In this document: piece by piece, positions 33,547 to 46,878 of the stretch
Layout: every line of letters starts with the position of its first letter
Numbering within the stretch: position 1 is the first letter of the stretch
Assembly (NCBI GenBank): GCA_018000835.1
Contig: JAGNJD010000009.1
Coordinates: 1 to 64,000, forward strand
Direction of reading: 5' to 3'
DNA: 64,000 bases
Source of the DNA: Candidatus Goldiibacteriota bacterium
GTDB taxonomy: Bacteria; Oederibacteriota; PGYV01; DSYL01
Program-made: the position numbers and the translations under genes
Notes under the pieces: generated by a model
What the model saw: the letters and a program-made list of their open reading frames with translations, nothing else
The model's database searches: none
What the model was told of the DNA's origin: nothing

Positions 33547-33775
33547 TTATTGGAACAGCATTCATAAAATATCTCAGTGAGATATTTTATGAATGCATAC
33601 ATTAAAAATGTTTTATCTACTTTGCCAAGAGGGTTCCAAGGGAGCTGCGGAATATCACTGGTATTCCTCGTCCCTTGGTCAATCAACGAAGTCCCGTAAA
33701 GATAATTTCTACGGGACGAAGTTGATTGAATTTTTTGTGGGAGCCTCGGGCTTTAGCCCGAGGGGGTCCCACTTA
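33547..33775 (+). repeat. multi-hairpin intergenic element, copy R1
   Basis: One of three near-identical copies (others at 42756 and 58561). Its parts in order are: an uninterrupted 39-nt palindrome at about 33558-33596 (arms starting GCATTCATAAAATATCTCA), a nested stem CCAAGGGA..TCCCTTGG, the short stem CAATCAA..TTGATTG, and a terminal hairpin GTGGGA-CTCGGGC-GCCCGAG-TCCCAC. Relative to the other copies, R1 lacks a 27-nt hairpin in the first palindrome and has an extra 24-nt hairpin at 33692-33715 flanked by ACGAAG duplications. The GTGG-plus-hairpin end resembles REP sequences mobilised by RAYT transposases. Confidence 0.85.
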
Positions 33776-42719: not shown

Positions 42720-42755
42720 ACTATCATTGTAAGCGTTAGCAAAACAATCCGTAGT

Positions 42756-42981
42756 TTATTGGAACAGCATTCAGAAAACCCCAAACTTCAGTTTGGGGAA
42801 TAAAATATCTCAGTGAGATATTTTATGAATGCACACATTAAAAATGTTTTATCTACTTTGCCAAGAGGGTTCCAAGGGAGCTGCGGAATATCACTGGTAT
42901 TCCTCGTCCCTTGGTCAATCAACGAAGTTGATTGAATTTTTTGTGGGAGCCTCGGGCTTTAGCCCGAGGGGGTCCCACTTA
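42756..42981 (+). repeat. multi-hairpin intergenic element, copy R2
   Basis: 226 bp, nearly identical to R3 at 58561. A 27-nt hairpin (42774-42800; arms CCCCAAACT and AGTTTGGGG) interrupts the left arm of the leading palindrome that is intact in R1. The CAATCAACGAAGTTGATTG stem is uninterrupted here. The element fills most of the 486-bp gap between the RNA methyltransferase gene and tRNA-Val and contains no credible gene. Confidence 0.85.
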
Positions 42982-43081: not shown

Positions 43082-43158
43082 GGGCTGGTAACTCAGCTGG
43101 TTAGAGTGTCATCTTCACAGGATGGAAGTCGCTGGTTCAAATCCAGTCCAGCCCACCA
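43082..43158 (+). tRNA. tRNA-Val (anticodon CAC)
   Basis: 77 nt with encoded CCA. The acceptor stem is GGGCTGG/CCAGCCC. The D arm contains AGCTGGTTA, the anticodon stem TCATC/GATGG closes the loop TTCACAG (anticodon CAC, reading GUG), and the T arm is GCTGG-TTCAAAT-CCAGT. All stems pair, with one or two G-T wobbles. Confidence 0.93.
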
Positions 43159-43206
43159 GACAGGTATTATAGTAAATAAAAATAAAACACGGAGGTGATG
43201 GATAAT

Positions 43207-43275
43207 ATGTGTAAAACGTGCGGTTGCGGAACAAAAACCAAAAAAACGAAGAAAAGTAAAAAAACAAAAAAATAA
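43207..43275 (+). CDS. 22-residue Cys-rich peptide matching the HypB nickel-binding N-terminus
   Basis: The peptide starts MCKTCGCG and continues with a Lys/Thr-only tail. GGAGGTGAT (43191-43199), a full match to the anti-Shine-Dalgarno, lies seven bases before this ATG; an in-frame ATG at 43198 is too close to it. In E. coli HypB the first residues (MCTTCGCG) form a high-affinity nickel site. The HypB encoded two genes downstream lacks that segment. The peptide therefore looks like a separately encoded HypB N-terminal metal site, directly before hypA. The start choice and the strong ribosome site are seen in sequence; the nickel role is inference. It was too short for ordinary gene calling. 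Confidence 0.65.
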   Translation: MCKTCGCGTKTKKTKKSKKTKK

Positions 43276-43277
43276 AA

Positions 43278-43622
43278 ATGCATGAGGTTGCAATAGCAGA
43301 GGAAATAAAAAACGTTGTCATTCAGAAATTAAATGAAAACAAAGGTAAAAAAGTAAAAGGCATAAAGTTGTTAATTGGAGAGATAACTTCAATTGTGCCC
43401 GAAGCATTAAAATTTGCCTTTAACGTTGTTTCAAAAGGATCTCCCATGGAAAACGCATTGATTCATATAAAAGTTTTAAAAGCAAAAGCGTTTTGCAGGA
43501 ATTGTTCAAAAAAATTTAAAGTAAACGACTATTATTTTATATGTCCTGCCTGTCATTCTTCCGACGTTGAAATTATGCAGGGAAGAGAAATGATAATTCA
43601 AACGATAGAAATGGAGATATGA
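43278..43622 (+). CDS. hypA: hydrogenase/urease nickel insertion protein HypA
   Basis: 114 residues. The N-terminal MHE nickel ligand motif and the zinc site C73-x2-C76 ... C89-x2-C92 (CRNC and CPAC) are intact, and GEITSIVPEALKFAFNVVSKG is the family core. HypA delivers nickel together with HypB to [NiFe] hydrogenase or urease. It begins two bases after the small Cys-rich peptide and ends right before hypB. Confidence 0.93.
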   Translation: MHEVAIAEEIKNVVIQKLNENKGKKVKGIKLLIGEITSIVPEALKFAFNVVSKGSPMENALIHIKVLKAKAFCRNCSKKFKVNDYYFICPACHSSDVEIMQGREMIIQTIEMEI

Positions 43623-44291
43623 ATGGCGACTATAGATGTTTATGAAAACATAATGAAAAAAAACGACGAAATAGCAGAGTATAACAAGAAAATGATAAAA
43701 AATGGATTATGTATTAATATTATGAGTTCTCCCGGTTCGGGGAAAACAACGTTGCTAGAAGCGTCGTTAAAAATTTTAAAGAAGAAATATAAAATAGCGG
43801 TAATTGAAGGTGACATTTCGACGTCAAATGATGCGTTAAGAATAAAAAGATGCGGGGTTTTTGCCTATCAGATAAAAACCGAAAATTATGGCGGCGGTTG
43901 TCATCTTGACGCAAAGATGATAAAAGAGGCGCTAAATAAAATCGTAAAAAAAGACAATTACGATTTTTTTATCGTTGAAAACGTAGGAAATCTGATCTGT
44001 CCTGCTGATTTTAATCTCGGGGAAGACAAAAAAGCAGTAGTTTTATCAGTAACGGAAGGATCCGATAAACCGTTGAAATATCCTTTGATGTTTAAAATTG
44101 CAGATGTTTTGGTATTAAATAAAACGGATCTTTTGCCTTACGTTGATTTTAATTTAAAAAGTTTTGAGAAAAACGTAAAGAGAATAAACAATAAATTAAA
44201 GATAATCAAACTTTCTGCAAAGACGGGCGAAAACATAAATGAATGGATAGAACAATTAAAAACGTGGTATATGGAAAAAAATATTTTTTGA
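43623..44291 (+). CDS. hypB: nickel-insertion GTPase HypB, lacking the N-terminal CxxCGC
   Basis: 222 residues. G1 is SSPGSGKTTL, then GDISTSNDALRI, GGGCHLDAKM (G-domain metal Cys/His), ENVGNLICPADFNLGED, and the NKTDLL specificity motif. The protein starts directly at the helix before G1, with no N-terminal CxxCGC nickel site or His-rich stretch. HypB uses GTP hydrolysis to hand nickel to HypA and the client enzyme. No hydrogenase or other hyp gene is in the window, so the client lies elsewhere. Confidence 0.93.
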   Translation: MATIDVYENIMKKNDEIAEYNKKMIKNGLCINIMSSPGSGKTTLLEASLKILKKKYKIAVIEGDISTSNDALRIKRCGVFAYQIKTENYGGGCHLDAKMIKEALNKIVKKDNYDFFIVENVGNLICPADFNLGEDKKAVVLSVTEGSDKPLKYPLMFKIADVLVLNKTDLLPYVDFNLKSFEKNVKRINNKLKIIKLSAKTGENINEWIEQLKTWYMEKNIF

Positions 44292-44298
44292 GGTTGAT

Positions 44299-46446
44299 AT
44301 GGCCGTTGAAAGCATAAAAAAGGATTCAGATTTTGATTCGTCCAGATTGTTTAATATGTCCGTATGGGAGGGCATACAATATAAATTTGCAAAGGATATG
44401 GGTATTGCCATAAAAGTAATGAGCGAAAACGGCAATATAAATATTGAAGAATCCAATTTCAGTGATTTTTATCAGATTTTATTGTCATCGCCAAAAGGTC
44501 AGAAATACGTTGACATTGACATCAATTCCTTTGATAAAGAAGCGCAGTTTGTCAATTTATATGCCGACTGCGTTTATTATAATACTTCAACTTATTTTTA
44601 TGGGGAAAAATTTCACATTCTGGTAGGTATAAGAAACAGAACGCCTAATCCTTCCATCGTAAAAAAATTAAGCGAGGAACTCGAACTTGATTACGACAAA
44701 CTTCTAAAAGCATATAATTCAATTCCAACTTTTAATGAAGAACGTCTTATAAGCCTTTCTGATTTTATCGTTGATTTGTTTAATATTGTAGTTGAACTCT
44801 CGGTCCAGGAATATACCACGCAGATGGCAAACGTACAAAAGGAAGAAGAAATTGCAAAAATGAGTGCATTGATGGAGGCAAGCATAATAATAAATTCAAC
44901 AAGAAACCTAGATGAATTGTTAAAAATAATCATGCAATCTGCAGAAAAAGTCATGCAGGCAGAAGCATCTTCGGTTTTTTTGATAGATAGTGAAAAAAAT
45001 GAATTGTATTTTGAAATGGCAACAGGCCCAAAAGAAGAAGAATTAAAAAAAATAAGATTAAAAATGGGCGAAGGGATTGCCGGATGGGTTGCTTATACAG
45101 GGGAAGCACTTTTGGTTCCTGACGTTTCAAAAGATCCGAGATTTGCAAAAAGAGTTGATGAACAAACAAAGTTTATAACGAGGTCTGTTATATGTGTTCC
45201 TTTAAAAGTCCGTAACCAGACAATAGGCGTTGTTCAGGTTTTGAACAAGATATCTGGACAAAGTTTTGCAAAAAGTGAAATAAAATTTCTTGAGGCACTT
45301 GCCTCGCAGGCGGCAATTGCAATTGAAAATACCAATCTTTATGAACATCTGGAAGAAAGGGCCGAACAATTAAATAAGGAATTAAAGGAAGCAAACGTCA
45401 ATCTTTCAATAGAAAAACTCAGAATAGAATCGATCATCCAGTCAATGGAAGATGCGGTTATTGCAATTGATAAAAGTAATAAAGTTGTTCTTGTTAACAG
45501 GATTGCGGAGAAAATATTCAATATAGATGCAGCCCATGCATTTGGAGTGGAGATAACGAATTTCAAAATAAATCAGACCGTAATAGATAATTTCAGGATA
45601 GTCCTTGATTCAAAAATTACCATGAAAAATGAAGTAAAATTTCATTTTGGCAACAAGGAACACATTTTTGCAGCCGTTTTTACCCCCATTGTGGATGAAA
45701 AAAAAGAAGCCGCTGGTTCTGTTGCCGTATTCAGGGACATAACGGAAATAAAGGAACTTGATAAAATGAAATCGGAATTTTTAAACATGGTATCACATGA
45801 ATTGCGCACGCCATTAACTCCAATCCAGGCATACAGCGAACTTATGCTCATAAGAAATATGGACAGTGAAAAAGTAAAAAGTTATGCTGAAATAATAAAC
45901 AAGGAAACCCAGAGACTGGGTTCATTAATTGGCGATTTGCTTGACCTGTCAAGGATTGAATCCGGGAAAGGATTAAGTCTTACATTGGAAGAGTTGGATT
46001 TTGTAAGTTTCCTGCAAGAAATTTATGAAATGTATAAAAATACGTCGCCAAAACATAAAATTATTTTGACAGTTCCGGGAAAAAGTGAGATAATATTATT
46101 TGACAAAAATAAACTTTCACAGGTTATGATTAATTTGTTATCTAATGCCATTAAATATTCTCCGGATGGTGGAAACATCGAAATAATAATGGAAGATAAA
46201 AATGACAGAATATATGTCACGGTCCGGGACAATGGTATAGGCATATTAAAGGAAGATTTACCACGTATTTTTGAAAAATTTTACAGAGTTCAGAGCGATG
46301 CGGTACGGAAAATAAGCGGAACGGGTATTGGTTTGCCAATAGTTAAATACATCATAGAACTGCATAACGGTAACATTGAGGTAAAAAGTGAATCTGGAAA
46401 GGGGAGCGAATTTACTTTTTATATCCCTAAAATAAAACCGACCTAA
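44299..46446 (+). CDS. cytosolic sensor histidine kinase (PocR-like, GAF, PAS, HisKA, HATPase)
   Basis: 715 residues, no membrane helices. Residues ~20-170 resemble a PocR-type ligand domain (WEGIQYKFAKDMGIAIKVM, NIEESNFSDFYQIL), without the usual cysteines. Next come a GAF domain (~190-345; SALMEASIIINSTRNLDEL, GEGIAGWVAYTGE), a coiled-coil linker, PAS (~380-480), HisKA with H500 in NMVSHELRTPLTPIQ, and a full HATPase (NAIKYSPDGG, DNGIGI, GTGIGLPIVKYI). A single-domain response regulator follows 15 bases later as the likely partner. The signal sensed is unknown. Confidence 0.85.
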   Translation: MAVESIKKDSDFDSSRLFNMSVWEGIQYKFAKDMGIAIKVMSENGNINIEESNFSDFYQILLSSPKGQKYVDIDINSFDKEAQFVNLYADCVYYNTSTYFYGEKFHILVGIRNRTPNPSIVKKLSEELELDYDKLLKAYNSIPTFNEERLISLSDFIVDLFNIVVELSVQEYTTQMANVQKEEEIAKMSALMEASIIINSTRNLDELLKIIMQSAEKVMQAEASSVFLIDSEKNELYFEMATGPKEEELKKIRLKMGEGIAGWVAYTGEALLVPDVSKDPRFAKRVDEQTKFITRSVICVPLKVRNQTIGVVQVLNKISGQSFAKSEIKFLEALASQAAIAIENTNLYEHLEERAEQLNKELKEANVNLSIEKLRIESIIQSMEDAVIAIDKSNKVVLVNRIAEKIFNIDAAHAFGVEITNFKINQTVIDNFRIVLDSKITMKNEVKFHFGNKEHIFAAVFTPIVDEKKEAAGSVAVFRDITEIKELDKMKSEFLNMVSHELRTPLTPIQAYSELMLIRNMDSEKVKSYAEIINKETQRLGSLIGDLLDLSRIESGKGLSLTLEELDFVSFLQEIYEMYKNTSPKHKIILTVPGKSEIILFDKNKLSQVMINLLSNAIKYSPDGGNIEIIMEDKNDRIYVTVRDNGIGILKEDLPRIFEKFYRVQSDAVRKISGTGIGLPIVKYIIELHNGNIEVKSESGKGSEFTFYIPKIKPT

Positions 46447-46461
46447 AAAGGAGGAACGTTT

Positions 46462-46878
46462 ATGGCGGAAAAAAAGAAAATAGTAGTGGCAGATGATGAG
46501 CCTTTTATTTTATCGGCGTTACAAGATACATTATCAGAACAATACAGCGTTTATTCTGCGACTAATGGTAAAATTGCAATTGAGGAAGTGAGAAACGTAA
46601 AACCAGATCTGATAATTCTTGATATTATGATGCCTGAAATGGATGGACTTGAGGCATGTAAAATTTTAAAAAGAGACAAAGAAACGTCTGGAACACCAAT
46701 TATACTTTTGACTGCAAAAGGTCAGATTACGGACATAGAAAAAGGTTTTAAATCAGGCGCAGATGCTTACGTAGTTAAACCTTTTTCTCCGGCAAGATTA
46801 ATAGAGAAAGTTGAAGAAATTTTTGAAAAGGTTGAAATGAGAAAAAAGATTATTGAAGATAAGAAAAAAAATGTCTGA
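46462..46878 (+). CDS. stand-alone response regulator receiver
   Basis: 138 residues, a receiver domain only: VADDEPF acidic pair, D54 in LDIMMPEMDG, T/S in LLTAKG, and K in VVKPFSPARL. A charged C-terminal tail follows. No DNA-binding or enzymatic output is attached, so it acts by protein contact or phosphorelay. AAAAGGAGG precedes the ATG. It is the likely target of the kinase encoded immediately upstream. Confidence 0.9.
   Translation: MAEKKKIVVADDEPFILSALQDTLSEQYSVYSATNGKIAIEEVRNVKPDLIILDIMMPEMDGLEACKILKRDKETSGTPIILLTAKGQITDIEKGFKSGADAYVVKPFSPARLIEKVEEIFEKVEMRKKIIEDKKKNV

Follow-up and report, generated by a model that had tools for sequence, protein, structure and literature searches.

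A micro-ORF of 22 codons that directly precedes hypA in a Goldbacteria genome is, by comparative evidence, a real gene, and the same comparison indicates that its peptide is kept under amino-acid selection. Its product is probably a Ni(II)-binding peptide that stands alone and works in trans with HypA and HypB, and translation of the micro-ORF would also drive that of hypA. This is the best explanation on the basis of the position and conservation of the micro-ORF, the selection on its amino acids, its linkage to hyp genes, the absence of the motif from HypB, and the presence of hydrogenases and hypFCDE in the genome. From sequence we infer the translation of the peptide, nickel binding and transfer, the partner, the role of the tail and the coupling to hypA. 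The window (the whole stretch of DNA analysed, 64,000 nucleotides) contains the following features at this place; G001, G004, G005 and G009 are related genomes, and G000 is the genome of the window itself.

43082..43158, + strand: tRNA-Val (CAC), detected by ARAGORN, immediately 5' of the micro-ORF; same placement in G001, G004 and G009
43191..43199, + strand: Shine-Dalgarno site GGAGGTGAT, 7 nt 5' of the micro-ORF ATG
43207..43275, + strand: micro-ORF of 22 codons plus TAA, encoding MCKTCGCGTKTKKTKKSKKTKK; proposed stand-alone nickel-binding peptide; kept in G001, G004, G009 and G005
43278..43622, + strand: hypA (TIGR00100, E=1.4e-29, above cut-off), starting 2 nt past the micro-ORF stop
43623..44291, + strand: hypB without the N-terminal CxxCGC (TIGR00073, E=1.3e-76, 257 bits), directly after hypA
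44299..46446, + strand: sensor histidine kinase of the GAF/PAS type; synteny with hypAB in four genomes
46462..46878, + strand: response regulator, named from its sequence; syntenic

The first-pass annotation had described a tiny gene with an MCKTCGCG start and a very strong ribosome site just before hypA, and the description was borne out. The reading frame begins ATG TGT AAA ACG TGC GGT TGC GGA and closes with TAA, and its Shine-Dalgarno site, complementary to the anti-Shine-Dalgarno, matches GGAGGTGAT at 9 of 9 nt, compared with a longest match of 6 nt among the 57 window ORFs of at least 100 aa. An alternative in-frame ATG at 43198 overlaps this ribosome site, and in G001 the Met preceding Cys2 is the first possible start in the frame. 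ATG-C-x-x-C-G-C is found a single time in the 2.3-Mb genome, and the reversed pattern, used as control, turns up about once per 30 genomes; therefore the probability that chance alone placed such a motif in frame, next to hypA and downstream of a perfect ribosome site is negligible.

The HypB encoded downstream starts with MATIDVYENIMKK and lacks CxxCGC, although its G-domain retains the metal-site segments GGGCHLDA and LICPADF. No second hypB above cut-off is present in the assembly (2.32 Mb, 94.5% complete), and a HypB with the fused motif, whose presence would have spoken against the proposal, was looked for elsewhere in it and not found; the earlier statement that HypB lacks the motif here thus holds for the sole hypB detected. 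The peptide is separated from the HypB GTPase domain by a stop codon and by hypA. It resembles the NCBIfam model HypB_prefix_1 (NF053667) in a profile search (E=0.0015 for the window peptide), with scores of 19.9 and 17.8 bits that stay below the curated cut-off of 30 bits, and Pfam gave no match for the two micro-ORF peptides scanned. By these criteria, lacking a fused GTPase and scoring below cut-off, the predicted micro-ORF product is outside the HypB family.

Conservation among relatives, the lack of which would have argued against the peptide, was investigated in 45 genomes of the phylum and by reading upstream of hypA. The micro-ORF is present in five genomes from three families of one order, that is, in the genome of the window and in four further Goldbacteria genomes, with the peptides MCKTCGCGVTKKTKKKKKVKK (G001), MCKNCGCGVNKKKKKK (G009), MCKTCGCGLKKKKKK (G004) and MCGVCECGCGCGDVKRKKAGKTVKKLKGRSKAGKTIKGKKKKQDA (G005). 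All five start with ATG, preceded 6-9 nt upstream by GGAGG or a longer match, and hypA starts at most 12 nt beyond the micro-ORF end, or inside it with 8 nt of overlap. Cysteines at positions 2, 5 and 7 (M-C-x-x-C-x-C) are present in all five peptides, and residues 1-8 are MCK[TN]CGCG in four of them; the copy in G005, the most distant one, begins MCGVCECGCGC and has Glu at position 6. The peptides are 15-45 residues long, with a tail that is Lys-rich in every case and otherwise varies freely in length and sequence. HypA is 42-69% identical among these genomes, and its third codon positions 29-58%, so that silent sites have largely been randomised. In codons 2-8 of the four closest copies, five of the six changes affect the third base of the codon (binomial P=0.018), and a single amino-acid difference (T/N) is seen. 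In 200,000 simulated sets carrying an equal number of random changes, the amino acids were never preserved to the same degree; this simulation treats the lineages as independent, and the binomial test is the simpler of the two. The independent micro-ORF sequences number only five, apparently all from uncultured bacteria.

The gene order tRNA-Val, micro-ORF, hypA, hypB, sensor kinase, response regulator is shared by G000, G001, G004 and G009, which represent two families (the name of the kinase rests on the window copy, that of the regulator on its sequence). The sensor kinase and response regulator 3' of hypAB may hint at a signalling link to hydrogen or nickel metabolism. The order in G005 is hypD-hypE-micro-hypA-hypB, so that more than a single operon connects the micro-ORF with hydrogenase maturation, and its association with hyp genes extends beyond one lineage. 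In the genome of the window, which has both [NiFe]-hydrogenase and other hyp genes, contig C6 carries hypF, hypC, hypD and the start of hypE (hypC and hypE were recognised by eye). Two [NiFe]-hydrogenase large subunits were found, each with both CxxC pairs (CGVC/CFGC and CGIC/CLSC), and their best matches are to Vhu/Shy-type models, below cut-off. An ISLre2-like transposase-type ORF was noticed by inspection of the sequence 5' of the second hydrogenase cluster (G000:C67, 1898-3130 of the fetched stretch).

To describe the distribution, 84,980 species were scanned for MCxxCGC followed within 12-72 nt by ATGCAYGAR, the hypA-type start. The scan gave 14 places, three of which are a micro-ORF with hypA, all in close relatives of the window and in Goldbacteria only. 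The other 11 were rejected: nine are ordinary fused HypBs with an internal MHE and two are unrelated frames. The exact motif misses the G005 copy, which was found by reading upstream of hypA, so that the negative result for other genomes is strongest where the exact motif is concerned. A broader scan for a ribosome site with MCxxCGC returned mostly fused HypBs and lost true cases, including that of the window, through a required last base; no count from it is used here. Among 145 fetched loci with HypB, from a 385-genome sample and members of the phylum, 27 have the fused motif and 118 do not. Two duplicate fetches and G017, whose fused-type N-terminus (MCKDCGCEEEE..., followed by a His-rich part) is cut off by the end of another contig, were left out of the latter, giving 115. 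The micro-ORF is present at five of these 115 loci and absent at 110, hypA lying within the fetched stretch in about 90. Within these scans and samples, the search suggested in the first-pass annotation, for MCxxCGC micro-ORFs 5' of hypA where HypB is motif-less, led to Goldbacteria only.

In a tree of 142 HypBs, the five HypBs accompanied by a micro-ORF form one clade (100/99) together with that of G007, a genome with the order hypE-hypA-hypB in which the micro-ORF is absent. The micro-ORF is therefore old in the lineage, and it is dispensable, since G007 does without it; one origin in that lineage and one loss is the simplest reading of the tree. The remaining HypBs of the phylum are scattered, as expected of genes moving between lineages. 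The motif-less HypB is the commoner form both in the sample and in the phylum. That the peptide is HypB's own N-terminus split off, as had been proposed, is unsupported, because the close HypB relatives are motif-less and because the fused motif always stands at the beginning of hypB, while this ORF lies in front of hypA.

In E. coli HypB, Ni(II) is coordinated by the N-terminal amine together with Cys2, Cys5 and Cys7, with a sub-picomolar Kd (PMC7055735). Since the amine is a ligand, the distance of the cysteines from the N-terminus matters, and a free nickel-binding peptide serving HypA and HypB in trans is proposed because the exact HypB ligands and their N-terminal spacing are preserved. 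The amine and the three cysteines would hold Ni(II) in the manner of residues 1-7 of E. coli HypB, in a separate molecule. The peptide would probably store nickel for the HypA/HypB pair or donate it to this pair, in which HypB has only the G-domain metal site, and the nickel would be destined for the two [NiFe]-hydrogenases of the genome. The Lys-rich tail probably serves electrostatic docking or localisation; speculatively, it could dock acidic partner surfaces or nucleic acid. The very strong ribosome site would make the peptide abundant, and ribosomes finishing the micro-ORF would be carried onto hypA, whose own Shine-Dalgarno match in the window is only 2 nt, with no evident ribosome site. 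Because hypA is without a ribosome site in all five genomes, its translation probably depends on the micro-ORF, and with coupled translation the peptide would be produced no less often than HypA. The earlier idea that the nickel site is tuned independently through its own translation rate is to be corrected in this sense, peptide and HypA being probably coupled. Whether a free, gene-encoded metallopeptide of 15-45 residues provides a high-affinity nickel site of the maturation machinery, acting in trans on a motif-less HypB as a minimal nickel chaperone translationally coupled to HypA, appears to us evenly balanced. Most of the sampled HypBs manage without the N-terminal motif, which counts against the proposal.

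It was also considered that the peptide is active towards metals or thiols and does not donate nickel to HypA/HypB, having instead a role in nickel or zinc storage, detoxification or redox chemistry. Sites of three cysteines also bind Zn, Cu or Fe, so CxxCxC is compatible with several metals, and MCxxCGCG starts also occur on small proteins unlinked to hyp genes; because of these proteins, such a start alone is no proof of a nickel or HypB function. However, the linkage of the micro-ORF to hypA-hypB is constant and extends to a place inside the hypDEAB cluster of G005, and in genomes of the phylum without hypB the motif matches are few and no comparable ORF with a ribosome site was found, which makes a non-donor role unlikely. 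One small protein of this kind is a 55-aa stand-alone protein in G341 (2004-2171 of the fetched stretch), MCYTCGCGMTADDMGDNRNITDKTI...KKKLAKKK, with a good ribosome site, in a genome whose own HypB is motif-less; it scores as well as the micro-ORF peptide against HypB_prefix_1. As a general family this MCYTCGCGM protein was rejected, being rare (3 of 385 genomes) and away from hyp genes in the stretch read. Near 222000 of G301:C8, a 37-aa Cys-rich ORF, MCNCCGCGSKMDYKCDDCGKTSKVPKECCGKQMKKQK, has a ribosome site, and the neighbouring gene starts with MDQITKEMTIMEVVN.

Alternatively, the micro-ORF could encode a regulatory nascent peptide, which would use Cys2, Cys5 and Cys7 to detect nickel, the supply of cysteine or the redox state while it is being translated, and would regulate hypAB expression in cis. 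The ORF is short, lies directly before hypA, is rich in Cys and Lys codons, and is likely to be translationally coupled, all of which would suit such a device. A chain of 15-22 residues, however, is still inside the ribosome tunnel at the stop codon, the 2-12 nt between ORF and hypA leave no room for an attenuator, and no attenuator- or terminator-like site was found in the 2-nt gap of the window; RNA folding gave only a weak signal (z=-1.8), and the tail is free to vary in length and sequence. We regard this as quite unlikely. It is also quite unlikely that the micro-ORF is a translational-coupling leader only, its strong ribosome site and short frame loading hypA and its peptide inert. The ribosome-site match of hypA, just 2-3 nt in all five genomes, and the closeness of its start to the micro-ORF end agree with a leader, but selection retains exactly MCxxC-x-C before hypA despite silent codon changes, such a leader is absent from G007 and from the other loci with a motif-less HypB, and coupling is compatible with a functional peptide. 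A functionless chance ORF, which the very short frame and low-complexity tail might suggest, is hardly credible, given that the frame is conserved in five genomes, with a ribosome site and silent substitutions.

The proposed nickel-binding peptide was compared with known systems. The N-terminal site of E. coli HypB (MCTTCGCG; HypB_prefix_1), where Ni(II) binding is square-planar, has the same spacing of Cys2, Cys5 and Cys7 from Met and belongs to the same pathway, and the micro-ORF keeps Gly6 in four of the five copies and Gly8 in all. In contrast to that site, the peptide is encoded by a separate gene before hypA, has no covalent G-domain, and continues with a Lys-rich tail where HypB is His-rich or acidic. 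HypB of Helicobacter pylori is of the type without the N-terminal motif; like the window HypB, this type has the G-domain only, and the roughly 110 sampled loci of the type, unlike the window, have no accompanying MCxxCGC peptide. CooT, involved in the maturation of CO dehydrogenase, is a small separate Ni-binding protein that uses Cys2 (PMC6006190). It resembles the micro-ORF peptide as a small separate accessory with Cys2 right after Met1, and differs as a folded 7.1-kDa beta-structure that forms a dimer with one Ni, lacks CxxCGC and serves another enzyme; peptides of 15-45 residues are outside the CooT type, a ~7-kDa beta-fold with Cys2. Hpn and Hpn-2 of gastric Helicobacter bind nickel and contact both HypA and HypB (PMC4671568). 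They are likewise small, compositionally biased and often missed by annotation, but they are His/Gln-rich, with micromolar sites and no N-terminal Cys triad. The first-pass annotation knew of no described example, and no description of a stand-alone HypB CXXCGC peptide was found in the open-access literature, most subscription journals lying outside the search.

The micro-ORF may thus be described as a micro-gene of the hyp system that the comparison indicates to be real and conserved, that is undescribed as far as searched, and for which the mechanism is plausible. Some HypBs carry a sub-picomolar N-terminal site and most lack one, and a natural arrangement with the site on a separate peptide offers a direct test of why this is so and of whether the site has to be part of the GTPase. 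If the proposal is true, the peptide would rank among the smallest metallochaperones; standard gene calling misses genes this short, and the same search could reveal other Cys-rich micro-ORFs abutting metallochaperone genes. Upstream of the tRNA-Val, positions 42755-42981 are occupied by an interspersed repeat of about 226 bp with internal inverted repeats, of which the genome has about 40 copies, about 80-100% identical; further copies lie on the same contig near 33564 and 58561, and several are at contig ends.
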